Assembly (NCBI GenBank): GCA_002729235.1
Contig: PBTY01000034.1
Coordinates: 69,374 to 104,732, forward strand
Length of the DNA stretch: 35,359 nucleotides
Origin: Rickettsiales bacterium
GTDB taxonomy: Bacteria; Bacteroidota; Bacteroidia; Cytophagales; Cyclobacteriaceae
Reading direction: 5' to 3'
The notes beneath the pieces were generated by a model. It was not told the origin of the DNA, did not search any database, and saw only the letters and a program-made list of their open reading frames with translations. Shown piece after piece: positions 20,005-34,801 of the stretch. Made by a program: the position numbers and the translations under genes. How positions within the stretch are numbered: position 1 is the first letter of the stretch; the number at the start of each line of letters is the position of its first letter.

Positions 20005-20022
20005 TTAGAAAACGTTTTCTAA
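20005..20022. promoter_or_regulatory. Operator candidate 1: perfect 18-bp palindrome before the first tetR
   Basis: TTAGAAAACGTTTTCTAA is perfectly symmetric and ends 9 bases before the ATG of the first tetR, next to its AAGG ribosome site. A protein bound here should block that gene's own expression. It also lies in the gap shared with the leftward membrane protein gene. A further inverted repeat, TAATCTA/TAGATTA (19971-19977 and 19989-19995), lies just upstream. Confidence 0.82.
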
Positions 20023-20031
20023 ATAAGGCAA

Positions 20032-20646
20032 ATGACCAACCGCGATAAAACCAAAGAGTCTGCATTGAAGTTGTTCAATGAAATGGGATATGCCAACGTG
20101 CGTTTGCAACACATCTCAGATGACTGTTTAGTGAGTGTTGGGAATATGGCTTATCATTTTAAAAACAAGCAAGCCATCTTGAAAGCCGTCTATGAAGATT
20201 TGGCTCAACGGCATCAATCATTATTATCTGACCTTAATCAAGTTCCCATATTTGACTACATGGATGAACATTTTCAAAAGGTTTACAGAGTGGTAGAGAC
20301 TTATCAGTTTTTTTATCTGGACACCAATGATATCATACGGAGTGATGAGGAAATTGCTCTTAAGTATACTCAATATCTAAAATGGGAGAAGGAGCAATTG
20401 ATTCAGGTATTTCGATTTAATGTATCACGGGGTTCATTCTTACCGATGAGTGAGGATACCTTAGCTCATTTGAGTGAGTTGATATCCTTAATCAAACAAG
20501 GGTGGGTCAATCCGGTAATACTGAAGGATCCAGAAGCTAACCAACGATTTAAGACCTTTATTTGGGACACATTATACCCTTATTTTTCTGAGCGGGGAGT
20601 AACTGAGTACGAGCAAATGCGTAAATTACACCAGACAAATTGGTGA
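20032..20646 (+). CDS. TetR-family transcriptional regulator, copy 1
   Basis: 204 residues. The N-terminal helix-turn-helix spans about residues 8-50, with recognition segment SVGNMAYHFKNK at 35-46, the usual TetR placement. The C-terminal part is helical and ends PYFSERGVTEYEQM. The second TetR protein (21018-21632) has the same length and aligns without gaps through the DNA-binding domain, and its end is also similar (PYFSKTGEIEY), so the two are paralogues. The promoter region carries a perfect TTAGAAA-type palindrome, pointing to autoregulation. It begins the hydrogenase island and forms a tight operon with the next two genes. The effector is unknown. Confidence 0.86.
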   Translation: MTNRDKTKESALKLFNEMGYANVRLQHISDDCLVSVGNMAYHFKNKQAILKAVYEDLAQRHQSLLSDLNQVPIFDYMDEHFQKVYRVVETYQFFYLDTNDIIRSDEEIALKYTQYLKWEKEQLIQVFRFNVSRGSFLPMSEDTLAHLSELISLIKQGWVNPVILKDPEANQRFKTFIWDTLYPYFSERGVTEYEQMRKLHQTNW

Positions 20647-20649
20647 TGA

Positions 20650-21015
20650 ATGTCCAAAAAGCCGGTATATATCGATCAGTTTTGCTATGAGTTAATGCTT
20701 TCAGGGATTAATGATCAATCGCTGGCCGATCAGAAAGGCGATCATATGGACCTGGCTTTGTTTTACGATGACCAATGGCTAATGGACAGTGCTGTCGTAG
20801 AAAATGTCGTATATAACAAAGGACACTGGGATATTTATCTGGTATTTGTCGATCCACTACACCCATTAAAATTAATCAGGCGAAAGATATCGTCGTACTT
20901 TACTGAAAAGAAAGCTTTGCAGGCCGGTAATTATATGAGAAGATTGGCAGCCAAAGATCAGAGAGGTACGATTAGAGTAGATATCAGTAACCATAAGCCT
21001 CTATCTGATAATTAA
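20650..21015 (+). CDS. Unknown 121-residue protein between two tetR genes
   Basis: A soluble 121-residue protein starting MSKKPVYIDQFCYELMLSG, three bases after the first tetR (which ends in a double TGA). It shows beta strands in the middle (MDLALFYDDQWLMDSAVVEN, HWDIYLVFVDPLHPLKLIRR) and a basic helical end (FTEKKALQAGNYMRRLAAKD). It has one cysteine, no metal-binding motif, no signal peptide and no membrane helix. I do not recognise a family. The position locked between two regulators suggests a part in regulation, for example as a sensor or antiactivator, but this rests on context alone. Confidence 0.75.
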   Translation: MSKKPVYIDQFCYELMLSGINDQSLADQKGDHMDLALFYDDQWLMDSAVVENVVYNKGHWDIYLVFVDPLHPLKLIRRKISSYFTEKKALQAGNYMRRLAAKDQRGTIRVDISNHKPLSDN

Positions 21016-21017
21016 GA

Positions 21018-21632
21018 ATGCAGACCAAAACCAAAATACTCAACGCGGCACTTGACATTTACAGCAAAGAAGGATTAACTGGAGTTAAGTTTCAATCCAT
21101 TGCTGATGAAGTTGGTATTAGTGTTGGTAATCTGGCCTATCACTACAAGAGTAAAGATGACATAGTCCTTAAACTCTATGAGAGTATAGAATCTGATTTC
21201 ATGCATATACTGGAATCGTTTAGAAAGTACGATACCTTGTTCGACTTGGAGAATCAACTGGATATGTTGTACTCTTTCAGTGTCAAATACCCATTTTATT
21301 TCATTGATCAGTTTCAATTGACCGAATCACTTGGTGAAGTAGGTAACATCCACCAAAAGTTAATGATCAAATTGAGTTCTCAGCTTTTCATGCAATTGAA
21401 GTTTCAGGAACAACGAGGAGTCTTAAAGCCAGAAAAGACTTGTGATTTCTATAAAGACTTGTCAGATAACCTGTGGTGCTTTATTATGTATCATTCTGCC
21501 AAAGAAATGATCAAGAGTATCCGTAAGAGTCGTGAAGAGTTCAAGAAATCGTTTTGGATTCAGATAGAGCCCTATTTCTCGAAAACTGGTGAAATTGAAT
21601 ACCAAAAGGTCGTTATCCCTACAGTTGCATAG
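21018..21632 (+). CDS. TetR-family transcriptional regulator, copy 2
   Basis: 204 residues. The helix-turn-helix has the recognition segment SVGNLAYHYKSK at residues 35-46, nine of twelve positions identical to copy 1, with conservative changes at the other three. The ligand-binding half is much more divergent (DLENQLDMLYSFSVKYPFYF in place of the copy 1 sequence). The two could bind the same DNA site, compete, or form heterodimers while responding to different signals. It starts 2 bases after the 121-residue gene and ends 13 bases before the second palindrome, in front of hupS. Confidence 0.86.
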   Translation: MQTKTKILNAALDIYSKEGLTGVKFQSIADEVGISVGNLAYHYKSKDDIVLKLYESIESDFMHILESFRKYDTLFDLENQLDMLYSFSVKYPFYFIDQFQLTESLGEVGNIHQKLMIKLSSQLFMQLKFQEQRGVLKPEKTCDFYKDLSDNLWCFIMYHSAKEMIKSIRKSREEFKKSFWIQIEPYFSKTGEIEYQKVVIPTVA

Positions 21633-21645
21633 TTTCTATTTTATA

Positions 21646-21667
21646 AATTAGAAAATGTTTTCTAATT
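21646..21667. promoter_or_regulatory. Operator candidate 2: 22-bp palindrome upstream of hupS
   Basis: The core TTAGAAAATGTTTTCTAA at 21648-21665 differs from site 1 at one base, in the centre. Symmetry continues for two more bases on each side, so only the central TG breaks the 22-bp repeat. It lies 112 bases upstream of the hupS start, a position compatible with either activation or repression. Confidence 0.82.
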
Positions 21668-21669
21668 CC

Positions 21670-21708
21670 AATATTTGTTTTATATTGGGTAAATATTTGT
21701 CAAATATT
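21670..21708. promoter_or_regulatory. Three AATATTTG half-sites in the hupS leader
   Basis: AATATTTG occurs at 21670-21677 and again at 21692-21699, exactly 22 bases (two helical turns) apart. The second copy is followed after one base by its inverted copy CAAATATT at 21701-21708, giving a perfect 17-bp repeat. The cluster directly follows operator 2 and probably overlaps the hupS promoter. A TAnnTTTG promoter at good spacing is not clear. It may bind a second regulator. Confidence 0.5.
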
Positions 21709-21779
21709 CAATTCATCATTCTCTGCGGACTGCTAATTGAAGGTTTGGGAAAACATTAAACTAATTGACTAGCAACACT

Positions 21780-22739
21780 ATGGCAAATTTACTTTGGCTC
21801 CAAGGCGGAGCCTGTAGCGGCAATACCATGTCGTTTCTCAACGCTGAAGAGCCAACTGTTGTAGAGTTGGTTACCGATTTCGGCATCAACATCCTATGGC
21901 ACCCATCAATCGGATTGGAAATTGGACAACAGGTTTCCGATCTAATGAAAGACATTCTCAGTGGTAAAATAGAACTAGACATTCTGGTCTACGAAGGTTC
22001 TATCATACAAGGTCCTAATGGCACTGGTACGATGAACTACTTCGCTGATAGACCAATGATGGACTGGGTAAAAGAACTTTCGGAAGTGGCTCAGTTTACC
22101 GTGGCTATCGGAGACTGTGCTACCTGGGGAGGAATTCCAGCAGTAGCACCAAACCCAAGTGAATCAACTGGAATGCAGTTTCTGAAAGAGAAAAAAGGAG
22201 GTTTCCTCGGTCCAAACTATGTTTCCAAAGGAGGATTACCGGTTATCAATATTCCAGGCTGCCCTGCACACCCAGATTGGGTTACTCAGATATTGGTAGC
22301 AATTTCTACTGGAAGAATAGGTGGTGTTCTAATTGATGAATACCACAGACCAAAGACATTCTTTACAGACTTTGTACAAACTGGTTGTACCAGGGTGAGA
22401 AACTTCGTTCAGAAGGAAGACGCGCATTTTGGTAAGCGTGGAGGTTGTTTATTCTACGAAGTAGGGTGTAGAGGACCTATGACCAGAGCGAGTTGTAATA
22501 ATATTTTATGGAACAGGCATTCAAGTAAGACGAGATCAGGGCACCCATGCCTTGGTTGTACTGAACCAGGATTCCCACATCATGATTTGAAAAAAGGTAG
22601 TGTACTGAAAACAATGAAGTATTTGGGAGTATTCCCTAAAGATGTACCTACAGGAGAAAGCAAGCTGATGTATTACTTGAAAGCTGGAGTGGGTAAGGTA
22701 TCTCCAAGCAACAAAGTCCTTTTAGAAACTTCAAAATAA
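21780..22739 (+). CDS. hupS: [NiFe]-hydrogenase small subunit, group 2a-like
   Basis: 319 residues from the ATG at 21780 (MANLLWLQGG); a TTG five codons upstream is less likely. It is the electron-transferring Fe-S subunit of an uptake hydrogenase. There is no Tat signal and no C-terminal membrane anchor, so it is cytoplasmic, as in cyanobacterial HupS and mycobacterial Huc. Cluster ligands visible: Cys12 in GGACSGN, the cysteines of AIGDCATWGG and NIPGCPAHPDW, and the medial/distal set in CLFYEVGCRGPMTRASC and HPCLGCTEPGFP. The usual proximal CxxC is altered: the second position is Asn15, a feature shared with oxygen-tolerant relatives as I recall them. It is followed after 7 bases by the large subunit. 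Upstream lie operator 2 and the AATATTTG cluster. Confidence 0.95.
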   Translation: MANLLWLQGGACSGNTMSFLNAEEPTVVELVTDFGINILWHPSIGLEIGQQVSDLMKDILSGKIELDILVYEGSIIQGPNGTGTMNYFADRPMMDWVKELSEVAQFTVAIGDCATWGGIPAVAPNPSESTGMQFLKEKKGGFLGPNYVSKGGLPVINIPGCPAHPDWVTQILVAISTGRIGGVLIDEYHRPKTFFTDFVQTGCTRVRNFVQKEDAHFGKRGGCLFYEVGCRGPMTRASCNNILWNRHSSKTRSGHPCLGCTEPGFPHHDLKKGSVLKTMKYLGVFPKDVPTGESKLMYYLKAGVGKVSPSNKVLLETSK

Positions 22740-22746
22740 TCCAGAA

Positions 22747-24336
22747 ATGTCAACTAAAGAATTGAATATATCTCCTGTAGGCCGGGTAGAGGGCGACCTT
22801 GATGTTAAGGTCTACATGGAAAACGGTGTGGTCACAAGAGCACACACTCAAGCAGCCATGTTCCGTGGCTTTGAAAAAATTATGGAAGGCAAAGACCCAC
22901 AATCAGGGTTAATTGTAACCCCTAGAATCTGTGGAATCTGTGGTGGATCGCACCTTTACTGTGCGTCATCTGCTCTGGACACTGCCTGGGGTACTACTTT
23001 GACTCCTAATGCGCTTTTATTGAGGGCTTTAGGTCAGGCAACAGAGACAATCCAGAGTATTCCAAGATGGTTTTACGCAATTTTCGCTACGGACCTTGCT
23101 AACAAAAAATTCGCTAGTAAGCCGTTGTACCAGGAAGTGGTAAAACGTTTTGCTGCATACACCGGTACATCATTCCAAAGTGGTGTTACGGCATCGGGAA
23201 GACCTGTTGAAGTTTATGCATTATTCGGTGGTCAATGGCCACACTCGAGCTATATGGTGCCTGGAGGAGTAATGTGTGCTCCAACTTTAAAAGACATTAC
23301 CCGCGCACATGCAATCATGAACCAGTTCAGATTGGATTGGTTAGAAACCACCTGGTTAGGTTGTTCTATTGAGCGTTATTTGCAGATTAAATCATGGGAT
23401 GATTTAATGGCTTGGGTGGAGGAAAATGAATCGCAAAGAAATAGTGATCTAGGCTTGTTCATTCGTGCTGGATTAGAGTTTGGCCTGGACAAATTTGGTC
23501 AGGGTGTAGGGAAATTCCTTGCGTTCGGAACGTACCTACACAAAGACCGATACAATAAACCGACAGTAGAGGGTAGAAATCAGGCTCTGATTAACTCTAG
23601 TGGATTCTTTGACGGCAAAAACTATCACACATTTGATCACAAACAAGTATTTGAGCACACGGATCATACATGGTTTGAGACACAGCCACCTGCTCACCCT
23701 TGGGATCAGCCATTACCTACACCAGTAGAATCTCAAAACCTGGAAGGAACTGATTTTGACAACAAATACAGCTGGTCAAAAGCTCCTAGATATGATGGCC
23801 ATGCTGTGGAAGCAGGTCCACTTTCTAGAGTGATTATGAATGCAAACCCTAACAATATGGATCATCAAATTCAGGATCCTTTATTTGGGGATATTATTCA
23901 AAATATGGGTCCTAGTGTGTTCACCAGAACTTTAGCTCGTGTACATGAAGCGCCTAGATTGTTTGAATACATCAATCAGTGGTTGACAGAGATTGACCTG
24001 GATGGTGAATTCTATATCAAACCTGAGGAAAAAGATGGTAAAGGATTTGGTGCTACCGAAGCTGCACGTGGTGCTCTTGCTCACTGGGTGGAAATCGAAG
24101 GTGGTGTCATCAAAAACTATCAGGTTATTGCTCCAACGACGTGGAATGTTGGTCCTAATGATACAGAAGGGAAATCTGGCCCTATTGAAGCCGCACTTGA
24201 AGGTACAGAAATTGAAGATCCAAACGATCCGGTAGAAGTGGGAATGGTAGCCAGATCTTTTGATTCTTGTTTGGTATGTACGGTACATGCCCATGATCAA
24301 AAGTCTGGAAAAGAGCTGGTGAAGTTCAAACTGTAA
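22747..24336 (+). CDS. hupL: [NiFe]-hydrogenase large subunit, group 2a-like
   Basis: 529 residues; carries the Ni-Fe(CN)2CO site that splits H2. The N-terminal nickel-binding motif is RICGICGGSH at residues 60-69 (Cys62, Cys65). The C-terminal pair is Cys508 and Cys511 in FDSCLVCTVH, where most families have DPCxxC: a Ser stands for the Pro. A 15-residue tail follows His514 and is expected to be removed by the downstream protease after nickel insertion. Other family marks are ISPVGRVEGD at the start and FRGFEKIMEG. It has no signal peptide. The overall sequence resembles the HupL/Huc large subunits used to recycle or scavenge H2 in air. A terminator-like hairpin follows. Confidence 0.96.
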   Translation: MSTKELNISPVGRVEGDLDVKVYMENGVVTRAHTQAAMFRGFEKIMEGKDPQSGLIVTPRICGICGGSHLYCASSALDTAWGTTLTPNALLLRALGQATETIQSIPRWFYAIFATDLANKKFASKPLYQEVVKRFAAYTGTSFQSGVTASGRPVEVYALFGGQWPHSSYMVPGGVMCAPTLKDITRAHAIMNQFRLDWLETTWLGCSIERYLQIKSWDDLMAWVEENESQRNSDLGLFIRAGLEFGLDKFGQGVGKFLAFGTYLHKDRYNKPTVEGRNQALINSSGFFDGKNYHTFDHKQVFEHTDHTWFETQPPAHPWDQPLPTPVESQNLEGTDFDNKYSWSKAPRYDGHAVEAGPLSRVIMNANPNNMDHQIQDPLFGDIIQNMGPSVFTRTLARVHEAPRLFEYINQWLTEIDLDGEFYIKPEEKDGKGFGATEAARGALAHWVEIEGGVIKNYQVIAPTTWNVGPNDTEGKSGPIEAALEGTEIEDPNDPVEVGMVARSFDSCLVCTVHAHDQKSGKELVKFKL

Positions 24337-24362
24337 TTCTTCATACTAAAATTTGCTAGATT

Positions 24363-24394
24363 AAGGAAGGCTGCTCCGGTGGTCTTTCTTTTTT
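24363..24394 (+). terminator. Attenuator/partial terminator between hupL and the maturation genes
   Basis: Bases 24363-24374 pair with 24379-24390 to give a 12-bp stem that includes four G-U pairs, closed by the stable tetraloop C(UCCG)G and running into six T residues. It lies 26 bases past hupL and just before the protease gene. No promoter is evident after it, so partial read-through would give less maturation mRNA than structural mRNA. Confidence 0.72.
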
Positions 24395-24399
24395 AGTTT

Positions 24400-24888
24400 A
24401 TGCTTATGAAAAAGACTGCAATAATGGGTTTCGGAAACCCTGTGAGAAGTGACGATGCGATAGGTGTTCATGTAGTCAATGAGCTCAAAAAGAAGATTGT
24501 GAGCCCTGACATTACCTTGATGGATATGGGTACGAGTGCTTTTGAGGTGCTTTTTGGTTTGAAAGGGCATGAAAAAATCATTATTGTGGATGCTGTGGTC
24601 AATTCTGATGAAGAACCAGGTACTCTATTTAAGGTACCAGCAGAAGAAGTGCTGAGAGCTCCTCAAGATGATCCAATGGTTTTTTTACATGGATTAAAAT
24701 GGGACCAGGCACTGTCTTATGCTAAAAAAATTATGGGAGAGGAATATCCTACAGACATTGAAGTGTACTTGATTGCGGTGGACAACACCCGATTGGAAAT
24801 TGAGATTTCTAAAGAAGTACTCAATGCAGGAGAGCAGGTTATACAGTTGATTTTGGACGAGATAGGCGAGGCCAATTATGTCGAGTAG
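24400..24888 (+). CDS. hupW: Hydrogenase maturation endopeptidase (HyaD/HybD/HupW family)
   Basis: 162 residues. The family signature GFGNPVRSDDAIGVHVV is at residues 10-26, with the nickel-sensing Asp in DDAIG, and the second part, TLMDMGTSAFEVLFGL and IIIVDAVV, matches the M52 peptidase core. HLGLKW-like LHGLKWDQALSYAKKI follows. It removes the C-terminal peptide of the large subunit once nickel is in place; here the target is the 15-residue tail of HupL. An ATG at 24406 is an alternative start that begins MKKTAIMGFG. The symbol follows the cyanobacterial partner of HupL and is by analogy. Its end overlaps the next gene by 11 bases. Confidence 0.9.
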   Translation: MLMKKTAIMGFGNPVRSDDAIGVHVVNELKKKIVSPDITLMDMGTSAFEVLFGLKGHEKIIIVDAVVNSDEEPGTLFKVPAEEVLRAPQDDPMVFLHGLKWDQALSYAKKIMGEEYPTDIEVYLIAVDNTRLEIEISKEVLNAGEQVIQLILDEIGEANYVE

Positions 24889-25198
24889 TATCCAATTAAA
24901 ATCATCTCATGTCATTATCGATTCTTCTATCGCTATACCATGTTTTGGCGATTCAATACATGCCATGGTGAGTTATAAAGAGGAGTCCGGACAATTGCTG
25001 CTATCCTGGATTGAGAATTCATTTTTTTCGAAACTCCATAAGGTGCACCAGGTCATTATCAAGCAAAAAGATTTAAAAGGAACAGTCAGTGTGCCTGTAA
25101 GGGATGTTATTATAGATCATGATTTGAGCGAAATGGATCGTGAATTAAGCTTTGACTTCAATACTAAAAACAGATTCATCAAAATTGATTTAATCTAG
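24878..25198 (+). CDS. Unknown 106-residue hydrogenase-associated protein
   Basis: Starts inside the end of the protease gene (11-base overlap) and stops directly before the ATG of the TPR gene. It is predicted to be mainly beta: QLKSSHVIIDSSIAIP, HAMVSYKEESGQLLLSWIEN, KVHQVIIKQKDLKGTVSVP and ELSFDFNTKNRFIKIDLI. There is one cysteine (IPCFGD), no signal peptide, no membrane helix and no metal motif. I do not recognise a family. The tight coupling on both sides argues that it works with the protease or TPR protein in making or regulating the hydrogenase. Confidence 0.76.
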   Translation: MSSSIQLKSSHVIIDSSIAIPCFGDSIHAMVSYKEESGQLLLSWIENSFFSKLHKVHQVIIKQKDLKGTVSVPVRDVIIDHDLSEMDRELSFDFNTKNRFIKIDLI

Positions 25199-26674
25199 AT
25201 GGTAACCATACATTCATCAACCCACACATTAAAGACTATTCAACAAATCATTGAAGCAAATGGAGATCTCTCCAACTATGTTGAGCTTTTTCCTCTAGAT
25301 AAGAAGCGTGAGGTTTTAGAGTTGGATCTGTTTGTTATTGACAATGAGATTGTTTGGCCAGTAGAGTGGCTCAATAGACATATTCCCATTTATGTTCCGG
25401 TGGTTCCATTTTCTGAGGATAATTTGTTGTGTCTCATTTTATTGAAAATGGGTCATTATCCAATGGCTGAAAGCTATGCGATCAATGAGGTTTTAAACAA
25501 TCATGTGACCTTATTGAAAAGTTTATCAGAAGGACTTCCCATGCTGGATATGCAATACAACTCACTCCATGCTTATAATAAGGCCCTGTATAACCAATAT
25601 AATCCCTATGGTAATTATCAACTGGTGGAGTCAACATTGATTGATGCAGAGGAGGAATTCATTAAGGCAGATTGGAAAATAATGGCGAGAAAACACCTTG
25701 CCGTATTAAAAGCGGATAAAGGAAATGATCTGGAAGCGATTAAAATCAACCTGGATACCTTGTCTAAATGGAGTCTTTCTGATGAGAGTAAGGCTTCCAT
25801 TGCCCTAGATCTAACTGGATTTTTGGCTAATTATTCATTGACTTGTCAGGAAGATGACTTGATTCGTGATACCAAAGATTGTGTTGATTTTGGAATTTCC
25901 TTTTTCAAAGAGCATAAGTTTGAGCTGGAAGAGGCAATGATGCAAATAGATCTTGGTCAGATAAAAGGAGCCCGTTTCAATTTCCAAGCATCGTTAAGCT
26001 TGTTTGATTCTGGAATTTATCAGTTGAACTCATTAGAGCAACCTGATTTGATGTATAGCGCGATTTACCGGAAGGCAAAAGTGCTTCATCATTGGTCTCA
26101 AAACGGTAATCCACAATTTTATAAGTTAGCACTCGAAGCTTACAACAAATCATTGAAGTTTTATACTCAGTCTGATTTTCCAGAAGTATTCTTTGAGATA
26201 CATTCCCAATTGGCGATGATCTATGCTGAAATTCCGTCTGATGGTAACCAAAATGCTATTTGGGCAGCATTCTCAGCTACTTCATTTAAAGAAGCACTTG
26301 ATTTCTATGCACAGTCAGGGGACCTAGATAAATATGCAACAGTGGCTAATAATTATGCCAACGCATTGATCAATTTTCCTGAAGCCAAGAATTCCGATAA
26401 TATCGAAAAAGCAATACATTACTTCAATGAGGCCTTGGAGATCAGAACAGCTAAGACATATCCTCAACAGCGAGCATTTTTGATCTTGAATTATTTGGAA
26501 GCGTGTTGGCTAGCCAATAATATCAATAACCACATGGAGCGTGTCCGATTGGAGGACATGATGTCCAAGGTGAAAGAAGTAAAATCATTGACTGATAATA
26601 AGGAAGCTATTCAAAGGTCAGAAGAGCATCTTGCTCATTTGATCGAACTGAAGAAGATGTTGTTAACCGCTTAA
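25199..26674 (+). CDS. TPR-repeat hydrogenase-associated protein
   Basis: 491 residues; the ATG follows the previous stop codon without a gap. Residues 1-110 form an N-terminal alpha/beta part (LKTIQQIIEANGDLSNYVEL, WPVEWLNRHIPIYVPVVPF). From about 110 to the end it is helical with TPR-type repeats, for example WKIMARKHLAVLKADKGNDL, LALEAYNKSLKFYTQSDFP, VFFEIHSQLAMIYAEIP and NIEKAIHYFNEALEIRTAKT. There is no signal or membrane segment. To my recollection, TPR genes also occur in the clusters of group 1h and 2a hydrogenases of other phyla, with unproved roles. An assembly or maturation scaffold is a reasonable guess. hypA starts two bases after its stop. Confidence 0.82.
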   Translation: MVTIHSSTHTLKTIQQIIEANGDLSNYVELFPLDKKREVLELDLFVIDNEIVWPVEWLNRHIPIYVPVVPFSEDNLLCLILLKMGHYPMAESYAINEVLNNHVTLLKSLSEGLPMLDMQYNSLHAYNKALYNQYNPYGNYQLVESTLIDAEEEFIKADWKIMARKHLAVLKADKGNDLEAIKINLDTLSKWSLSDESKASIALDLTGFLANYSLTCQEDDLIRDTKDCVDFGISFFKEHKFELEEAMMQIDLGQIKGARFNFQASLSLFDSGIYQLNSLEQPDLMYSAIYRKAKVLHHWSQNGNPQFYKLALEAYNKSLKFYTQSDFPEVFFEIHSQLAMIYAEIPSDGNQNAIWAAFSATSFKEALDFYAQSGDLDKYATVANNYANALINFPEAKNSDNIEKAIHYFNEALEIRTAKTYPQQRAFLILNYLEACWLANNINNHMERVRLEDMMSKVKEVKSLTDNKEAIQRSEEHLAHLIELKKMLLTA

Positions 26675-26676
26675 TC

Positions 26677-27021
26677 ATGCACGAGGTATCTTTAGTACAA
26701 AGCATATTCAGAACATTGGAGTCTGAGTTTGATGAAGACGAGCTAGATCGCCTATCTCAAATTGATTTGAAAGTGGGGGTGCTTAGCAATGTGGAGCCTA
26801 TTTTGATGCAAAATGCTTTTAGTGCAGTGATTGAAACAAATGATAGATTCAAGTCTGTTAGACTTCATATAGATAAAGTTCCCATTTTGATCAAATGTGA
26901 CTTATGTGGTGAAGTTAGTCAGGTGGAGAACTATGTATTCAAATGCTCCAACGGGCATCCCAGTAAAAATGTCATTCAAGGTGAGGAACTCCTCATCGAA
27001 AGAGTTCATTTCAATGATTAA
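26677..27021 (+). CDS. hypA: Hydrogenase nickel-insertion protein HypA
   Basis: 114 residues beginning MHEVSLVQSI, with the conserved nickel-binding N-terminal Met-His-Glu. It passes nickel, with HypB, to the large subunit. The zinc site is unusual: Cys74 and Cys77 (CDLC) are normal, but the second pair is C90-SNG-H94 rather than CPxC, so the fourth ligand may be histidine. The C-terminal GEELLIERVHF matches the family strand. It closes the first part of the island; its stop lies 8 bases before operator 3. Confidence 0.92.
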   Translation: MHEVSLVQSIFRTLESEFDEDELDRLSQIDLKVGVLSNVEPILMQNAFSAVIETNDRFKSVRLHIDKVPILIKCDLCGEVSQVENYVFKCSNGHPSKNVIQGEELLIERVHFND

Positions 27022-27029
27022 TGATTGAT

Positions 27030-27047
27030 TTAGAAATTATTTTCTAA
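27030..27047. promoter_or_regulatory. Operator candidate 3: palindrome upstream of hypB
   Basis: TTAGAAATTATTTTCTAA has the same seven-base arms (TTAGAAA/TTTCTAA) as sites 1 and 2, and only the central bases differ. It lies between hypA and hypB, 64 bases before the hypB start, and suggests a separate regulated promoter for the hypB-onward genes. Confidence 0.78.
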
Positions 27048-27069
27048 TCGATCAAAATCCTTTTTCACA

Positions 27070-27097
27070 CCTCCAGATATCAGTATATTTCTGGAGG
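27070..27097 (+). promoter_or_regulatory. Hairpin that can mask the GGAGG in the hypB leader
   Basis: CCTCCAGA at 27070-27077 pairs perfectly with TCTGGAGG at 27090-27097 over a 12-base loop. The right arm contains GGAGG, an anti-Shine-Dalgarno match 14 bases before the ATG. There is no T-run after it, so it is not a simple terminator. It may tune hypB translation, although GGAGG is rather far from the ATG. Confidence 0.45.
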
Positions 27098-27111
27098 TAA
27101 ACAGTTAACTC

Positions 27112-27825
27112 ATGTCAATAGCAAAATCGAATCAACAAGCACGAGGTACCGTGCAATGTGAAAACTCCTCTATGAATCTTCTGAAAGCCAATGACTTCAT
27201 GGCTGATCAAATCAGAAAGGAGATGCATCGAAGAAATGTATTACTGATCAACATTACTTCATCTGCTGGTAGTGGCAAGACTACTTTAATGCAAGAGACG
27301 GCCAAAAGATTGTCTAGCAAGCTGAGCATGAAAGTGTTGGTGGGAGATTTGGAAACCGAGCGAGATGCGGACAGAATCAAACAAGCAGGAGTGGAGGCTC
27401 TTCAGATTGTAACTGGAGGCATTTGCCATTTAGAAGCACAAATGATCTGGCAAGGAATGGATAGCATCAATCTAGATGGTGTTGACTTACTATTTGTAGA
27501 GAATGTGGGTAATCTGGTTTGTCCCGCTTCTTTTGATTTAGGAGAGGATTACCGAGTAACTTTAATGGCTAGTACAGAAGGAGACGATAAACCAAAGAAA
27601 TATCCTAAGATGTTCTTAACCAGCGACTTAATGCTGGTTTCAAAGTCAGATCTGTTGCCGTATCTTCCATTTTCAGTGGAAGCAGTGACACAAGATGCCA
27701 GAGACATTAATCCAGAACTGGAAGTTATGCAAATCTCCAGTTTGAATGGCGAAGGTATCGATCAGTGGTGTGATTGGTTACTTGAAAAAGTAGAGGTAAA
27801 AAAGGCAACAGCTCAAATTGTCTGA
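27112..27825 (+). CDS. hypB: Hydrogenase nickel-insertion GTPase HypB
   Basis: 237 residues, a SIMIBI-class GTPase. Motifs: Walker A SSAGSGKTTLM (about residues 49-59), switch region VGDLETERDADRI, metal site TGGICHLEAQM, ENVGNLVCPASFDLG (Walker B area), and the guanine-specificity SKSD in LMLVSKSDLLPYL. It lacks the His-rich nickel-storage stretch seen in some N-termini; the leader MSIAKSNQQARGTVQC has no such run. It drives nickel delivery with HypA to HupL. It starts a second transcription unit preceded by operator 3 and runs to the hypF start with a gap of 3 bases. Confidence 0.94.
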   Translation: MSIAKSNQQARGTVQCENSSMNLLKANDFMADQIRKEMHRRNVLLINITSSAGSGKTTLMQETAKRLSSKLSMKVLVGDLETERDADRIKQAGVEALQIVTGGICHLEAQMIWQGMDSINLDGVDLLFVENVGNLVCPASFDLGEDYRVTLMASTEGDDKPKKYPKMFLTSDLMLVSKSDLLPYLPFSVEAVTQDARDINPELEVMQISSLNGEGIDQWCDWLLEKVEVKKATAQIV

Positions 27826-27828
27826 TTT

Positions 27829-30105
27829 TTGCAGACCTATCGGATACATATCGAAGGCATCGTACAGGGCGTTGGTTTTAGACCATTCGTAAAACGTCTG
27901 GCTGAAAGGTTTGAGATAAGTGGAACAGTTCAAAATGGCTTGGATGGTGTTCGCATTATTTTTAATGCCAAGGACCCAGATCATGCTCAAATATTTCTTG
28001 ATACCTGTGTCTCTGAGGCTCCAAAACAATCCAGAATTGACCACTATTCTATGGAATTAGTTGATTCTGAAAGATTTGATCAATTCGAACTATGCTTATC
28101 TGCCGGTCAGGGTGTTCTCAATGCTCCAATCACCCCTGATCAAGGACTTTGCAAACAATGTTCGGAAGAGCTTCTTGATCCTGCTAACATCCGGTATGGT
28201 TATCCTTTTATCAGTTGTACAGATTGCGGTCCGAGGTATTCCATTCTAAATGGGATGCCATTTGATCGAGAGACAACTACCATGGATTTGTTTCCAATGT
28301 GTTCAAATTGTGAGAAAGAATACAATAATGTAGACAATCGACGTTTTTATTCACAAATCAATAGTTGTCCTGAGTGCGGGATTCAATTATCGCTTTGGAC
28401 TGCTTCTGGTGAGTTAGAAATGACCGCTCAGGAAAAGGTCGATGAGGTAATCAAAGCTTTGCGCTCAGGATTTATTGTTGCTGTCAAAGGAATAGGAGGT
28501 TTTCTATTACTGTGTGATGCGTCCAACACAAAGAGTATCCAGCTGCTTCGAGAACGTAAAGTAAGACCAGATAAACCTTTTGCTGTTTTATGTCCATCGC
28601 TGGAATCCATACAATCCAATTTTATACCCTCAACTGCTGAGCAAAAAGCTTTACAAAGTGCAGCAGCTCCAATAGTTATTTTGAAACCTAGAAAGGGAAA
28701 TTTATTGGATTTAAAATTTGTTTCTCCAGGCTTGGATTCTGTTGGAACCATGTTGCCTTATGCGCCATTACTCAAAGTTATTGCTAATCAGTTTATGGAG
28801 CCTTTGGTGGCTACAAGTGCAAATAAAAGTGGGCAGCCGTTAATCTATAAATATGCTGAGGAGTTGCTTGATTTGGCCGATATTGTATTGGATCACAATC
28901 GAGAGGTTACATTTCCTCAAGATGATTCGGTAGTTCGTTTTACACCTTTTACGGATCATCAAATTGTCATGCGTCGATCCAGAGGTTTGGCTCCATCTTA
29001 TATGGCTAAATCTAACGAATTGGATGGATTACTTGCTGTTGGAGCTGAAATGAAAGGGACATTTGCTGTTGGTCATTGCGATCAGGTCTATATTTCACAA
29101 TATTTAGGTCAGCTAGGTTCTTTTGATAATCAAGAGAATTATAAATATGTATTGAATAAGCTTACCTCAATGATTGGATGTAATCCAGAGGTGGTTCTTC
29201 ATGATTTGCATGAGCAATATTTCACTACTGAATTAGCTTCTGAATATACCTTGGAGCAAATAAGTGTTCAGCATCACGAAGCGCATATGATGGCTGTTCT
29301 TTATGAACATTCTCAACTCGAAAGTAATGAGCCTGTTTTAGGTGTGGTTTGGGATGGTACAGGTGCTGGAACTGATGGTGCTGTTTGGGGAAGTGAATAC
29401 ATGGTATATGATGACGGGCATATCGATCGATTAGCTCATTGGGACTATTTTCCGGTTATAGCCGGAGACAAAATGAGTAAAGAGCCAAGATTGTCAGCCT
29501 TGGCTATTTTGGGAGAGAATAGTGGCTTGGAAAAGAAATTTACAAATCAGGAATGGTCTTACTATTCCAAATTGAGAAAACAAGAGTCATTGCAAACGTC
29601 TAGTATGGGGCGCATTTTTGATGCAGTAGCTTCTATTCTAGGCTTAATAGATGTGTCGACGTACGAAGGTCAAGCCGCCATGCTGTTGGAGCAATGTGCG
29701 TTGAGTTATTATCTTGAAAATGGATCAAATACTCCAGGAATTTATGAAATCTCTTTAGACCGATTGAATACGCGTGAGCTATTGGATATGATACTTGATG
29801 ATGTTTGTCAAGAAATTGAGCCCAATAAGATTGCTGCTAAATTCCATGAGACATTGGTTAGTTCAATTAGCTATATGATCCAGATTGGTCAGTTTCAAAA
29901 GGTAGCCTTCTCTGGTGGAGTTTTTCAGAATGGATTATTGGTTGATCTTATCCAGTTTAGGATAGAAGATCATGTGCAAACCTATTTCCACCAGCAACTT
30001 TCACCTAACGACGAAAATATTAGCCTGGGCCAGATGGTCCATTATCGATACGTACAATCAAAAGAGCCTTTAAAAACATTTAAACAACAAGAACAATGTG
30101 TTTAG
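27829..30105 (+). CDS. hypF: Carbamoyltransferase HypF (cyanide ligand synthesis)
   Basis: 758 residues, normal length. It converts carbamoyl phosphate and ATP to carbamoyl adenylate and passes the carbamoyl group to the C-terminal Cys of HypE. Domains: acylphosphatase (YRIHIEGIVQGVGFRPFVKR, residues 4-23), zinc fingers (CKQCSEELLD ... FISCTDCGPRY ... MCSNCEKEYN ... SCPECG), a YrdC-like domain (GIGGFLLLCDASN, ATSANKSGQP) and a Kae1-like domain (VQHHEAHMMA, WDGTGAGTDGAVWG). The start is a TTG at 27829, three bases after the hypB stop; no ATG or GTG precedes the acylphosphatase domain, so TTG seems real and translation is probably coupled to hypB. The end overlaps hypC by 10 bases. Confidence 0.95.
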   Translation: MQTYRIHIEGIVQGVGFRPFVKRLAERFEISGTVQNGLDGVRIIFNAKDPDHAQIFLDTCVSEAPKQSRIDHYSMELVDSERFDQFELCLSAGQGVLNAPITPDQGLCKQCSEELLDPANIRYGYPFISCTDCGPRYSILNGMPFDRETTTMDLFPMCSNCEKEYNNVDNRRFYSQINSCPECGIQLSLWTASGELEMTAQEKVDEVIKALRSGFIVAVKGIGGFLLLCDASNTKSIQLLRERKVRPDKPFAVLCPSLESIQSNFIPSTAEQKALQSAAAPIVILKPRKGNLLDLKFVSPGLDSVGTMLPYAPLLKVIANQFMEPLVATSANKSGQPLIYKYAEELLDLADIVLDHNREVTFPQDDSVVRFTPFTDHQIVMRRSRGLAPSYMAKSNELDGLLAVGAEMKGTFAVGHCDQVYISQYLGQLGSFDNQENYKYVLNKLTSMIGCNPEVVLHDLHEQYFTTELASEYTLEQISVQHHEAHMMAVLYEHSQLESNEPVLGVVWDGTGAGTDGAVWGSEYMVYDDGHIDRLAHWDYFPVIAGDKMSKEPRLSALAILGENSGLEKKFTNQEWSYYSKLRKQESLQTSSMGRIFDAVASILGLIDVSTYEGQAAMLLEQCALSYYLENGSNTPGIYEISLDRLNTRELLDMILDDVCQEIEPNKIAAKFHETLVSSISYMIQIGQFQKVAFSGGVFQNGLLVDLIQFRIEDHVQTYFHQQLSPNDENISLGQMVHYRYVQSKEPLKTFKQQEQCV

Positions 30106-30377
30106 CAATACCTGGAAAGATTAAGTCCATTGAAATGCGATACAACAATACGGTACGCATGGCCAAAGTACAATTTGGAGGGATCGTAAAAGAAGCAAGT
30201 CTCGAAATGGTTCCTGCAGCCAAAGAGGGAGATTATGTGTTGGTGCATGTAGGTGTTGCCATAAGCATTGTCAATGAGGAGGAGGCACAGAAAACCTTTG
30301 AGTATTTAAGAGAAGCTGGAGAACTGGACGAGCTAGAGCCAGCTTCAGTGGAGCAATTAAACAAGGAGGAGGAATGA
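30096..30377 (+). CDS. hypC: Hydrogenase assembly chaperone HypC
   Basis: 93 residues starting [13 protein letters not shown], the HypC/HypG hallmark. After removal of Met, the N-terminal Cys binds the Fe(CN)2CO unit together with HypD, and HypC then carries it to the large subunit. The middle [16 protein letters not shown] and [13 protein letters not shown] are typical OB-like strands. An acidic, Glu-rich tail (EEEAQK ... LNKEEE) follows. Only one hypC-type gene is visible in the island, fitting a single hydrogenase here. The ATG lies in the end of hypF and its TGA overlaps the hypD ATG (ATGA). Confidence 0.95.
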
Positions 30378-31471
30378 AGTATTTATCTGAATATCGAGAT
30401 CCTGAGCTTGTAAAAGAGTATTTGGAAGAACTTCATAAGGTTGTTACTAAGCCGTGGACGATCATGGAAGTTTGTGGTGGTCAGACCCATAGTCTGGTAA
30501 AGAATGGCATTCTGGACTTACTTCCTAAGGAAATAACCATGGTTCATGGACCGGGATGTCCTGTATGTGTTACTCCTTTAAACCTTATAGATAAAGCGAT
30601 TTATCTAGCTGAGGAAAAAGGTGCGATCCTTTGTTCCTATGGAGACATGCTTCGAGTACCAGGTTCACAAAAGAGTTTGCAAGAAGCCAAGGCTGGAGGT
30701 GCAGATATTCGCATTCTGTATTCTCCTTTGGAGGCTGTCAACATCGCGCGAGAGAACCCGGATAAACAGGTAGTGTTCTATGCTGTTGGTTTTGAAACGA
30801 CAGCTCCAGCCAATGCACTTTCTGTAGTTCATGCTCACAGAGATGGTTTGACCAATTACAGCATTCTTGCTTCACATGTGTTGGTTCCACCAGCTATTGA
30901 AGCATTGGTGAGCGATGAGGAAAGTGTAGTACAAGGATTTTTGGCTGCCGGGCATGTGTGCACCATTATGGGAATGGAGGAGTATTACCCATTAGTTGAA
31001 AAGCATCAGGTTCCAATAGTTGTTACGGGTTTTGAGCCTGTAGATCTGCTTCAGGGCATCTTAATGGTGGTGAAGCAACTCGAAAAAGGTGAGCATAAAC
31101 TCGAAAATCAGTATGCTCGAATGGTTAGTCGAGAAGGAAATCGCGAAGCACAGGGAGTAATTGAGCAGGTGTTTGAAGTGACTGATCGTCTATGGAGAGG
31201 AATGGAAGTAATTCCAAAAAGTGGTTACCAGGTGAAAAGTCAATTTGCGGATTATGATGCCAATGTCAAGTTTAGCATTGAGATAGAAGAAGCTCATGAG
31301 CACAAAGAATGCATTGCCGGTGAAATCATGAAAGGATTGAAAAAACCACATCAGTGCAGTCAGTTTGGTAAGAAGTGTACACCGGTTAATCCTCTTGGAG
31401 CTCCAATGGTTTCCTCAGAAGGCGCTTGTGCGGCCTATTATCATTATTCCACAACAGAAGAACTGGTCTAA
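30374..31471 (+). CDS. hypD: Hydrogenase maturation protein HypD (Fe-S scaffold)
   Basis: 365 residues. With HypC it holds the iron while CN and CO ligands are attached. Conserved parts: [15 protein letters not shown] (about residues 33-47), [10 protein letters not shown] (about 57-66), [10 protein letters not shown], and a C-terminal [4Fe-4S] region with cysteines in [19 protein letters not shown] and GACAAYY. The start has an unusually strong Shine-Dalgarno, AAGGAGGAGG at 30363-30372, and overlaps the hypC stop by 4 bases, which favours efficient coupled translation. It is followed after 14 bases by hypE. Confidence 0.95.
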
Positions 31472-31485
31472 AAGAGAGCAAGAGA

Positions 31486-32529
31486 ATGAAGTTTAGCAAC
31501 AATTGCCCAATGCCCAAATTAGACTTTGATGTCATCACCATGGGGCATGGAAGTGGAGGCGTTTTAACCCATAAATTACTCGACAAGGGAGTTTTCTCTT
31601 TGTTGAGTAATGATCTGTTGGATCAAAAGCATGATGGAGCCGTTTTCCAAATTGATGGACCGATGGCTTTCTCTACGGATAGTTATGTGGTAAATCCCAT
31701 CTTTTTCCCTGGCGGCAACATTGGTGATTTAGCTGTTAATGGCACAGTCAATGATCTGGCAATGTGCGGCGCTCAGCCAAAGTACCTGTCTCTTAGCTTT
31801 ATTCTAGAGGAAGGTTTGAAAATGGAAGAGTTTTGGGAAGTGCTGGTGAGCATCAAAGAAGCTGCAGAAAAAGCCGGCGTTCAAATCGTTACGGGAGATA
31901 CCAAGGTTGTAGATCGAGGTAAAGCAGATAAAATCTTTATCAATACATCAGGTGTTGGACAAGTGCTGAATGGTGCGAGCATCGGGATAGATAATGTAAA
32001 GCCAGGTGATAAGATCATTGTAAGTGGAGAAATTGCCAATCATGGTATTGCGGTAATGTCTGTTCGTGAGGGGTTGGAATTTGAAACGGATATTTTGACT
32101 GACAGTCGTCCACTGAATCATGCAGTGAAAGAGTTGATTGATCAATATGCACAGGACATTCATTTACTTCGCGACCCGACAAGAGGTGGAGTGAGTACTG
32201 TATTGAACGAAATTGCTCAACAAGGAAAAGTAGGGGTAGATATTGAATATAGACTTTTGCCACTCAATGAATCTGTTGAAGGAGCATGTGAAATGCTTGG
32301 ATTGGATCCGCTTTATGTGGCGAATGAGGGTGTTTTTCTTGCCATCGTCTCAGGTGATCAAGCAGAAGCCATTGTGGAGACTTTGCAATCTATTGAAGGT
32401 TGTGAGCAAGCAGCTATCATCGGTGAAGTCACAGAAGAACATATTGGGAAAGTCATTTCCACCAGTCCGATCATGGGACGTAGAGTGATTGGAATGCTTC
32501 CAGGAGAACAACTGCCAAGGATATGCTAG
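31486..32529 (+). CDS. hypE: Carbamoyl dehydratase HypE
   Basis: 347 residues from the ATG at 31486; longer frames start inside hypD and lack family sequence. It dehydrates its carbamoylated C-terminal cysteine to thiocyanate using ATP and donates cyanide to iron on HypCD. Features: MGHGSGGVLTHKL near the N-terminus, the PurM-like ATP site (FSTDSYVVNPIFFPGGNIGD and NGTVNDLAMCGA), DTKVVDRGKADK, LRDPTRGGVST and the essential C-terminal PRIC ending in Cys. The C-terminal cysteine codon overlaps the start of the NHL gene; a 7-base overlap couples the two. Confidence 0.95.
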   Translation: MKFSNNCPMPKLDFDVITMGHGSGGVLTHKLLDKGVFSLLSNDLLDQKHDGAVFQIDGPMAFSTDSYVVNPIFFPGGNIGDLAVNGTVNDLAMCGAQPKYLSLSFILEEGLKMEEFWEVLVSIKEAAEKAGVQIVTGDTKVVDRGKADKIFINTSGVGQVLNGASIGIDNVKPGDKIIVSGEIANHGIAVMSVREGLEFETDILTDSRPLNHAVKELIDQYAQDIHLLRDPTRGGVSTVLNEIAQQGKVGVDIEYRLLPLNESVEGACEMLGLDPLYVANEGVFLAIVSGDQAEAIVETLQSIEGCEQAAIIGEVTEEHIGKVISTSPIMGRRVIGMLPGEQLPRIC

Positions 32530-33626
32530 CCGAATTGCAAAAAGAAATATTACCTGGAGCTAATGTCTTTGTAGGTGATCCTACAGATCCATTTCTGGCA
32601 CCAAGAGGAGTTTGGATTGGTAAAGGAAAGATGTTGGTGTCTGATACCGGTCAGAATCGTGTGTATGTCTGGAATAGTATTCCAACTGGGAAGCAAGGGA
32701 AACCTGATTTAGTGTTGGGGCAAGATCTATTCGGAAGCACTGGCAGGAACAATCAGGGAACAGCATCTGGAAGTTCATTGCAGTATCCATCTGCGATATG
32801 GTCGGATGGAGAACGCATCATTCTGGGCGATGCCTGGAATCACCGGGTACTAATTTGGAATTCCTGGCCAACAAAAAATGGTCAGGAAGCCGATGTGGTG
32901 ATCGGTCAGAAAAATCTCAAAGATACACAGCCTAACATCAAAGGTGTGGGGGCAGAGCCGGATGCACATACGTTGTACTGGCCTTATGGTGTATTCAGTA
33001 ACGGTAAGGAATTATGGATTGCTGATACTGGTAATCGTCGAGTGCTGTATTTTGAAAGTATTCCTACAAAAAATGGTCAATCAGCAGATGCAGTCATTGG
33101 CAAGGAGAACTTCACCGAGCGAGATTACGATCATGAAAATCCAATTTGGCCCTATTCCGTTAAGATTAGTGAGTCAGGCCAATTAGCCATTACTGATACA
33201 CAGTATTATCGAGTGCTGGTGTGGAAGCATTGGAAAGATGCTTTGATACAAAAAGCTGATTTGATTATTGGACAGGAAGATTTCAATCAAAATGGTCAGA
33301 ATCAATTTCGATTAACACCAGCATCCAACACTTTGAATTGGTGCTACGATAGCTGCTTCGAAGGTGAAAATCTTTGGGTAGTTGATACTGGAAACAGTCG
33401 ATTGCTGAAGCATAATTTAAATAGTGAAAAGAATGCACCTGCTGCGATTGATTTGATCGGTCACACCGGGTTTGATATAGGAAGTGAAAATGTCAATACC
33501 ATTATGGGAACTGAAAATGCGCTTTATTGGCCATTTTCTGTATGTATTGATGGTGGGACTATTGCGATTGCTGATACTGGCAATCACCGAATTATTATTG
33601 GAGATTTAGCGAATAGAAAGAAATGA
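32523..33626 (+). CDS. NHL-repeat beta-propeller protein of the hydrogenase island
   Basis: 367 residues with no signal peptide or membrane helix. Five to six NHL-type repeats are visible, each with a (A/S)DTGNxRV core followed by a WNSxPTKNGQxADxVIGQ block: VSDTGQNRVYVWNSIPTGKQ, LGDAWNHRVLIWNSW, IADTGNRRVLYFESIP, ITDTQYYRVLVWKHW, VVDTGNSRLLKHNL and IADTGNHRIIIGDL. The fold is a six-bladed propeller that could bind protein partners. To my recollection similar NHL genes sit in group 1h/2a hydrogenase clusters of other bacteria, without known role. The start overlaps hypE by 7 bases; the end overlaps the permease ATG (ATGA). Confidence 0.85.
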   Translation: MLAELQKEILPGANVFVGDPTDPFLAPRGVWIGKGKMLVSDTGQNRVYVWNSIPTGKQGKPDLVLGQDLFGSTGRNNQGTASGSSLQYPSAIWSDGERIILGDAWNHRVLIWNSWPTKNGQEADVVIGQKNLKDTQPNIKGVGAEPDAHTLYWPYGVFSNGKELWIADTGNRRVLYFESIPTKNGQSADAVIGKENFTERDYDHENPIWPYSVKISESGQLAITDTQYYRVLVWKHWKDALIQKADLIIGQEDFNQNGQNQFRLTPASNTLNWCYDSCFEGENLWVVDTGNSRLLKHNLNSEKNAPAAIDLIGHTGFDIGSENVNTIMGTENALYWPFSVCIDGGTIAIADTGNHRIIIGDLANRKK

Positions 33627-34237
33627 CGTGGATACCATTTGTTTTTGCAGCCATGGTTGGATTTAATCATGCGTTTGAAGCAGATCATGTGTTGGCTGTT
33701 GGGAATATTGCCAATAAGCGCCCTAGCATTTGGATGGCGATAAAAGATGGCATTTTCTGGGGATTGGGGCATACTTCCATGATATTCCTGGTAGGTATCT
33801 TCATTATTATCGGAAAGCTGTTCTTATTGGAGGAGGTGGAATTCGAATTCTTCGAGGTTTTCGTAGGGATCTCCATGGTTGGTTTGGGTCTATATCGATT
33901 AGTAAAATACCAGAAGACTCATGATCACTCACATACTCCAAAGGATGCCAATTTCAGGGTTGCTTACTCTGTTGGTCTGATTCATGGGCTAGCAGGAAGC
34001 GGAACCGTCATTTTATTGGCCATGTCAGAAATCAAAAGCAATGTGGAAGGCATCTTTTACTTATTGATTTTTGGAATTGGATCCATTTTGGGCATGATGG
34101 TAGTGGCAGGTGTATTTACTTTGCCCTATTTAAAATCTATTCAGTCAGGTGGAGCATTTCACAAAGTGCTTGTCTGGATATCTGCAGGGTTGTGCCTCAG
34201 TTATGGTGTTTGGATGATTGTTAGTTACTTTCAATAA
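33623..34237 (+). CDS. Nickel/cobalt permease-like membrane protein (NicO/UreH/NiCoT superfamily)
   Basis: 204 residues with about six membrane helices. The first helix holds the NiCoT signature H-x4-D-H as NHAFEADHVLAVGN (His16, Asp21, His22). The second conserved block is GLIHGLAGSGTVILLAMSEI, and ISVGLGLYRLVKY lies between. A short histidine stretch, HDHSHTPKD, is placed in a loop and could catch metal. It most likely imports Ni2+ for the hydrogenase, as it ends the hyp operon. UreH-like proteins of the same superfamily are an alternative. The ATG overlaps the NHL stop by 4 bases and the next gene starts 3 bases after its end. Confidence 0.83.
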   Translation: MTWIPFVFAAMVGFNHAFEADHVLAVGNIANKRPSIWMAIKDGIFWGLGHTSMIFLVGIFIIIGKLFLLEEVEFEFFEVFVGISMVGLGLYRLVKYQKTHDHSHTPKDANFRVAYSVGLIHGLAGSGTVILLAMSEIKSNVEGIFYLLIFGIGSILGMMVVAGVFTLPYLKSIQSGGAFHKVLVWISAGLCLSYGVWMIVSYFQ

Positions 34238-34240
34238 TTG

Positions 34241-34801
34241 ATGAGCAAGGTTGAGCTTTTTATTGTTGCATTGACTCAGAGTGAATCTGTTCCCGGGAAG
34301 GCCAGCCTGATCCTGGAGGATGTCAAGCATTCCAGAAGACTTCCGGTGATTATCGGTAATTCTGAAGCTCAATCCATAGCCCTTGTATTGGAACGTATGA
34401 AACCCAAGCGTCCACAAACACATGATCTATTAGTGAATGTCCTTAAAGGTCTAAAAGGCACCCTAAAAGAGGTGTTGATACATAGATATGACAATGGGGT
34501 GTTCTTCTCAAAGCTTATTCTTAAGTCGCAGGATGATTTGATTGAGCTGGATAGCAGAGTCTCAGATGCGGTGGCAATTGCTTGTAGAATGGATACACCT
34601 ATATTCATCAATGAGGAGATTTTTGAGGAGATAAGCCTCGATAATGACATGGAGGCTATTCCTAAAACAACAAGGGGAGGTCTAACCAATTATTCCTTAG
34701 AGGAACTTGAGGATATGCTTCAAAAAGTACTGTTAAAAGAGGACTATATCAGTGCTACTCGAATCCGAGATGCCATTGAGAAAAAGATGCTGGGAAATTA
34801 G
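34241..34801 (+). CDS. Bifunctional nuclease family (DUF151) protein with UVR domain
   Basis: 186 residues from the ATG at 34241. The N-terminal part (MSKVELFIVALTQSES, LPVIIGNSEAQSIALVLERM, KRPQTHDLLVNVLKGL, VSDAVAIACRMDTPIFINEE) is a clear DUF151/bifunctional nuclease domain. The C-terminal part, LEELEDMLQKVLLKEDYISA followed by TRIRDAIEKK, is a UVR motif as in UvrB/UvrC, used for protein contact. The combination is widespread in Bacteroidota. The gene is unrelated to hydrogenase by known function but starts 3 bases after the permease, so it may be cotranscribed; it may mark the right border of the island. Confidence 0.87.
   Translation: MSKVELFIVALTQSESVPGKASLILEDVKHSRRLPVIIGNSEAQSIALVLERMKPKRPQTHDLLVNVLKGLKGTLKEVLIHRYDNGVFFSKLILKSQDDLIELDSRVSDAVAIACRMDTPIFINEEIFEEISLDNDMEAIPKTTRGGLTNYSLEELEDMLQKVLLKEDYISATRIRDAIEKKMLGN

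Follow-up and report, generated by a model that had tools for sequence, protein, structure and literature searches.

The hydrogenase island and its palindromes

The window, a 35,359-nucleotide stretch of contig PBTY01000034.1 from a Cyclobacteriaceae (Bacteroidota) genome of 6,553,609 bases, carries a [NiFe]-hydrogenase island that opens with two genes for TetR-type regulators, tetR1 and tetR2, and in which one palindrome, TTAGAAA-N4-TTTCTAA, precedes tetR1, the small-subunit gene hupS and hypB. The site-and-TetR module of Bacteroidota hydrogenase islands is real and conserved: the sites, their conservation, their tie to the TetR family, the division of this family into two clades and the geometry of the hupS promoter were all computed. 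L-numbers below denote loci and G-numbers genomes. The island is laid out as follows.

20005..20022: operator 1, TTAGAAAACGTTTTCTAA, a perfect palindrome of 18 bp that ends 9 bp ahead of the tetR1 ATG
20032..20646, + strand: tetR1 (T1), TetR-type regulator; PF00440 and PF13972; T1 clade; model pLDDT 94.7
20650..21015, + strand: mid121, 121-residue protein between both tetR genes; no Pfam or NCBIfam family
21018..21632, + strand: tetR2 (T2), TetR-type regulator; PF00440; T2 clade
21648..21665: operator 2, TTAGAAAATGTTTTCTAA, precedes hupS
21681..21688, + strand: candidate hupS -7 box TATATTGG, 15 nt past operator 2; offset kept in relatives
21780..22739, + strand: hupS, small subunit of the Huc-like [NiFe]-hydrogenase; start ATG set manually, the open reading frame prediction beginning at TTG 21765
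22747..24336, + strand: hupL, Huc-like large subunit; family match and likeness to Huc
24400..24888, + strand: hupD-like maturation protease (HycI family); family match
24878..25198, + strand: orf106, hydrogenase-linked protein; family search, homologues in relatives' loci
25199..26674, + strand: TPR-like cluster protein; TPR matches below the Pfam cut-off
26677..27021, + strand: hypA; family match
27030..27047: operator 3, TTAGAAATTATTTTCTAA, precedes the hypB operon
27112..27825, + strand: hypB (CobW/HypB/UreG family); family match
27829..30105, + strand: hypF, exact start uncertain; manually named on the basis of position and translation, homologues equally placed in relatives
30096..31471, + strand: hypC and hypD; manually named on the basis of position and translation, homologues in relatives
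31426..32529, + strand: hypE, exact start uncertain; manually named on the basis of position and translation, homologues in relatives
32523..33626, + strand: NHL-repeat cluster protein; family search
33623..34237, + strand: NicO-like nickel transporter; just under the Pfam cut-off
34238..34801, + strand: bifunctional-nuclease-domain (BFN) protein, end of the island; family search, homologues in relatives

The original prediction had placed three copies of the palindrome at the positions of the three operators, and exact matching found all of them there, with 0 matches in 100 dinucleotide shuffles. It had seen no further copy in the window, which is borne out for exact matches; at up to three mismatches two additional copies appear, each with 3 mismatches, where 5.3 in all are expected. 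A genome-wide scan, proposed as a check, revealed that the motif is not frequent: the exact 18-mer occurs in the organism's own genome only as the three window copies, all in the island. Given the window's base composition, this genome would be expected to hold 0.14 exact sites and 4.9 with one mismatch; it holds 3 and 4. The four one-mismatch sites (L004-L007) were considered as extra members of the regulon and rejected, their number matching that expected by chance; one of them (L007 1501-1518) lies directly upstream of an ammonium transporter gene, at chance level. At up to two mismatches the genome holds 69 copies against 118 for the reversed control pattern, and the looser copies are thus background.

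The intergenic gaps tetR1-mid121 and mid121-tetR2 measure only 3 and 2 bases, which suggests that the three genes form one operon. The product of mid121 has no significant match in the PDB, and HucM or another known fold was dropped as its identity when a profile found no relative among solved chains. In most of the loci compared, the gene adjoins the tetR genes, and a short homologue lies between orf106 and the TPR gene (L020 12459-12725 and others), also in loci devoid of TetR. Two secondary features were observed near the operators. A perfect 9-bp hairpin at 27069-27098, between operator 3 and hypB, pairs GGAGG with CCTCC (minimum free energy -15.1 kcal/mol over a 78-nt stretch, z -3.2) and possibly hides a ribosome site, and an inverted repeat at 21668-21688, CCAATAT-N7-ATATTGG, takes in the candidate hupS -7 box.

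Conservation of the site with the TetR family

A scan for relatives of HupS yielded 344, of which the best 80 were retained, and in their loci the hupS site was counted at 0-1 mismatch within 250 bp. It is present in 41/41 loci with a TetR of the family (29 exact, 12 with one mismatch, L016 counted as TetR-bearing) and in 0/39 without a TetR in view, where the closest copy carries 2 mismatches; the motif therefore recurs in related Bacteroidota hydrogenase clusters, as the original prediction had suggested looking for. Restricting the count to the 69 loci whose upstream DNA exceeds 2.5 kb gives the site in 38/38 with a TetR match and in 1/31 without, and the reversed pattern in 0/69; the one deviating locus, L016, does carry tetR2 and mid121, some 16 kb further downstream on its contig. 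The other 11 loci comprise 2 with both TetR and site (L075, L091) and 9 in which neither is visible. Whole-genome searches of five genomes without the site (those of L024, L038, L055, L072 and L093) gave a best TetR match of 136 bits and no TetR of the hydrogenase-family tier.

A scan of 196 genomes of the taxonomic family is consistent with this picture. A TetR above 200 bits is encoded in 16 of them, the next genome's best reaching 178 bits, and 15/16 carry the exact site beside hydrogenase genes, while G126 has one-mismatch sites. G014 and G056 (the genome of L093) have this hydrogenase without the TetR, and the DNA fetched from them shows no site at up to two mismatches; the contigs of G155 and G176 end before the upstream region. 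The exact site occurs without a TetR above 200 bits in nine genomes, eight of which (L132-L139) show no hydrogenase gene or family TetR within the 5-16 kb fetched. In the ninth, G140, the site precedes a DUF2911 gene and a hyp operon (L131 3384-12441); no family TetR and no [NiFe] large subunit were detected in it at the thresholds used. Among 395 genomes of the class, the exact site occurs in 28, whose context was opened for 7, and 7 of the 28 are among the 9 genomes with a TetR above 200 bits; G584 (the genome of L052), also above 200 bits, has a one-mismatch site instead, and G523, with a TetR relic above 200 bits, has no site at 0-1 mismatch in 19 kb. An apparent relic at L244 9421-10002, a T1-like TetR adjoining a BFN gene stub, lacks both hydrogenase genes and a site at 0-1 mismatch in its 19-kb surroundings.

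The position of the hupS site relative to the promoter is likewise conserved. Bacteroidota promoters carry a -7 box TAnnTTTG and a -33 element. An exact TAnnTTTG lies at offset 14-16 past the proximal hupS site in 22/42 loci and nowhere else ahead of the start; in the window, TATATTGG at offset 15 agrees with this consensus at 5/6. The right arm of the hupS site would then lie over what we take to be the -33 element, a position that fits repression. A second site (up to three mismatches) stands 19-26 bp away in 27/42 hupS loci, with none in the window.

The enzyme encoded by the island is Huc-like, group 2a by its likeness to solved structures: the closest to HupL and HupS by bits is the group 2a Huc of Mycobacterium smegmatis (PDB 7UUS/7UTD), with 667 bits for HupL against 206 for the next solved hydrogenase and 455 against 116 for HupS. 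An identity as group 1l was dropped after the HupL comparison. The attached tetR1-mid121-tetR2 set distinguishes the island from Huc. The island is patchy in its distribution, since no [NiFe] large subunit was detected at E <= 1e-10 in five genomes of the same genus (G007, G088, G133, G161, G180). Two hupS-like genes are present in 17/80 hupS loci (L042, L056, L060, L061, L073, L074, L077, L079-L083, L085, L086, L088, L089, L095), the extra copy, 64-74% identical, lying between tetR2 and the operator where the map is visible.

The same site also precedes a different small subunit (33-34% identity) in four genomes of the family, L127-L130, of which L127 and L128 are close kin. One family TetR is encoded at L127, L128 and L130 and two at L129; these group on the T2 side of the tree, and mid121 was not found at the four loci. 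Their enzyme resembles HofG (PDB 5AA5), a stretch of the L128 large subunit scoring 469 bits to it against 188 for the next. HofG itself presumably belongs to group 1h. The HofG-like small subunit had no match at E <= 1e-60 in the 395 class genomes, an absence that is not informative by itself. In G087 (the genome of L130), two further family TetRs follow hypE in tandem (L345 2657-3926) on a contig that holds hypF, hypD, hypE and a hofL-like end and stops before any readable promoter; either the genome has another HofG-like cluster or the assembly contains more than one strain.

Two paralogues and a candidate operator code

TetR1 and TetR2 were expected to be paralogues of equal length with similar recognition helices, and the alignment agrees: each has 204 residues, and the helices have 9/12 residues in common (SVGNMAYHFKNK and SVGNLAYHYKSK). 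The two proteins are identical at 19/52 positions of the DNA-binding half and at 29/150 of the remainder. Both belong to PF00440 (TetR_N), at 33.7 and 33.8 bits for a cut-off of 24. The structure of TetR1, the only one of the two modelled, is predicted with a mean predicted local distance difference test (pLDDT) score of 94.7 as an all-helical TetR fold, with a template modelling score of 0.88 to 3nnr. The claim of different ligand domains stands in so far as these regions have diverged; they nevertheless appear to keep the same fold, and both touch PF13972, TetR1 with 42.7 bits (cut-off 25) and TetR2 below the cut-off with 15.8. In a quick tree, T1 and T2 form two clades, each with a support of 99 in the Shimodaira-Hasegawa-like approximate likelihood ratio test.

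The distribution of the two paralogues, called by clade profiles, separates the sites. The hupS site (0-1 mismatch) is kept in all 16 loci with a single paralogue, 5 T1-only and 11 T2-only, although L088 and L091 among the latter are not valid as T2-only, because their sequence starts at the edge of a contig; L091 also contains a fragment of T1. Among named relatives, Flavilitoribacter nigricans DSM 23189 (L077) encodes both TetRs, and Chitinophaga costaii A37T2 (L092) has T2 alone and lacks the hyp site. In the eight single-TetR genomes searched whole, the next TetR match does not exceed 135 bits. Together with the near-identical recognition helices, these loci fit one common operator type. 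The hyp-operon site, by contrast, mostly tracks tetR1: where hypB is readable, it is present in 28/30 T1-bearing loci (the exceptions being L060 and L240) versus 1/7 T2-only loci (L016), with a Fisher p of 8e-5 that ignores kinship, L039 and L333 being kin. The site upstream of tetR1 was found in 4/34 tetR1 loci checked (the window, L018, L022 and L141), which are neighbours on the TetR tree. Of the three-site regulon initially proposed, the conserved core is thus hupS and the hyp operon, the tetR1 site being local; autorepression, which the end of operator 1 only 9 bases before the tetR1 ATG would fit, is for the same reason not general.

The best evidence that the TetRs read the site comes from their cousins, 73 lower-scoring TetRs (up to 190 bits) whose own starts were searched from -120 to +20. 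An 18-bp nTAG...CTAn palindrome is present in 33/73, compared with 0.16% of mononucleotide shuffles and 4/196 control open reading frames of the cousin loci. The inner triplet, counted from the first palindrome of each cousin, mostly follows residues 2 and 6 of the helix pattern SxGNLxYH: LT goes with TAC (7), QH with TTC (3), DR with CTC or CCC (4), YC with GCA or GCC (6) and HE with GGC (3). In the hydrogenase TetRs, residue 2 is mostly V, I or P and residue 6 mostly A or T, and the sites have AAA. An internal control is provided by another contig of the own genome (L292 5118-5163), where a TetR with the helix SQGNLHYHF has tandem TTAGTTC palindromes ending at -37 and -9. Nine TetRs of intermediate score (L247-L255) stand away from hydrogenase genes, five of them with TTAGTAC palindromes and several adjoining a recurring set of genes with open reading frames of about 532, 660, 272 and 285 residues.

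A proposed switch for hydrogen oxidation and its alternatives

We propose, with a probability of roughly 0.8, that TetR1 and TetR2 are paralogous repressors that read one operator upstream of hupS and hypB and are released by ligand. Long diverged, they would both recognise TTAGAAAA-N2-TTTTCTAA. A dimer on the hupS operator would cover the -33 region of the promoter and shut off hupSL and the accessory genes behind it, while a dimer on the hypB operator would limit the maturation and nickel operon. TetR1 would be the paralogue tied to the hyp site, and either paralogue could hold the hupS site. A ligand, perhaps different for each, would release them from the DNA, and the site before tetR1 would add negative feedback in this lineage. 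Binding, repression, the type of dimer and release by ligands are inferred, as is the choice between common and separate signals. Of the initial idea of one site read by two regulators with different signals, what holds is one operator type tied to the TetR family (41/41 against 0/39 at hupS, 33/73 among the cousins).

Several observations weigh against this proposal. The hupSL tree requires only 2 changes of TetR label; the site changes both times, and a paired sign test (p = 0.5) cannot reach significance with 2 changes, so that the 41-to-39 contrast rests on few independent events. In 9 of the 39 loci without the site just 110-2369 bp of upstream DNA are in view, and a TetR could therefore sit out of view, while G140 has the site and hyp genes and no TetR of the hydrogenase family. 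The window's TetRs are on long branches of a tree of the quick kind. An exact -7 box is lacking in 20/42 hupS loci, and no such box is found at the hupS offset past the hyp sites (0/20) or in the HofG-like promoters. The operator code is incomplete, since HA pairs with TCC (2) and AAC (1), PT pairs with three different triplets and 40/73 cousins, many of them close kin, yielded no palindrome. Likeness of the helix alone is a weak guide, since L247 (SIGNLAYHF) and L315 and L324 (SVGNLTYHF) have no palindrome at their own start.

Could the TetRs instead be activators, or dual regulators, a dimer just upstream of the promoter helping RNA polymerase? This would suit the proximal hupS site, which lies entirely on the upstream side of the -7 box, and the frequent occurrence of a second site at a distance of 19-26 bp; the right arm, however, is positioned where the -33 element is expected from the consensus, and operator 1 is 9 bp before the tetR1 start, just as palindromes lie near many cousin tetR starts, both of which fit blocking, so that we regard activation as unlikely. 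About as improbable, or slightly more so, is that the two paralogues work solely as an obligate heterodimer, and thus as a single regulator. Their equal length here, adjacent genes, single palindrome and near-identical helices would suit it, but the 5 T1-only and 11 T2-only loci (with the two reservations given above) keep the hupS site, and no second TetR above 135 bits emerged from the eight genomes searched whole; T1/T2 heterodimers may nevertheless form where both exist. We give little credence to the idea that another island-linked protein reads the site while the tetR genes merely travel along. The candidate would be mid121, which also adjoins the tetR genes in most loci, yet the HofG-like loci L127-L130 keep TetR and site where mid121 was not found, its short homologues occur in site-less loci, and TTAG...CTAA palindromes are found upstream of cousin tetR genes. 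Least plausible of all is that the palindromes are chance or neutral relics: the intergenic DNA is AT-rich and 69 copies at up to two mismatches fall below the reversed control, but the exact copies are confined to the island in the own genome and the fixed distance to the promoter recurs in many relatives.

The repressor reading can be compared with known systems. The window's TetRs resemble TetR, QacR and AcrR-type repressors in their TetR_N helix-turn-helix, all-helical fold and palindromic site near their own or a target promoter; they differ in that two paralogues are tied to one operator in a hydrogenase island and in the TTAG-nnn build of the operator throughout the subfamily. The closest solved folds to TetR1, 3nnr and 3rh2, have listed titles without a ligand name. 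The H2-sensing HupUV/HoxBC systems with HupT/HoxJ and HoxA, described in part in PMC2974642, also control uptake hydrogenase genes, but they consist of a sensor hydrogenase and a two-component system rather than a TetR; they were not searched for in the own genome. Among the matches listed, titles and opening lines of abstracts name no TetR regulator of these hydrogenases, the string 'tetr' in the hydrogenase paper passages stands for tetratricopeptide, tetrazolium or tetramer, and the main text of PMC4482099, which deals with mycobacterial TetRs, yielded no mention of hydrogenase.

The site and the TetR pair point to a so far undescribed on/off switch for the use of hydrogen as a fuel. It can be hypothesised, at slightly less than even odds, that this is a portable two-input H2 switch, in which paralogues with different ligand domains co-repress the enzyme operon, T1 additionally controls the operon for maturation and nickel, two distant [NiFe]-hydrogenase types, Huc-like and HofG-like, have come under the one switch, and two helix residues set the inner triplet of TTAG-nnn...CTAA operators. 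According to passages of PMC10305171, Robiginitalea biformata (Flavobacteriaceae) and Marinovum algicola, which encode group 1l enzymes, showed no substantial H2 consumption, and the authors could not separate a loss of function from very specific conditions. The operator and the two regulator genes offer a direct handle to derepress such a hydrogenase and to find the signal, and the operator code, if it holds, would make the regulons of this TetR subfamily predictable from sequence.

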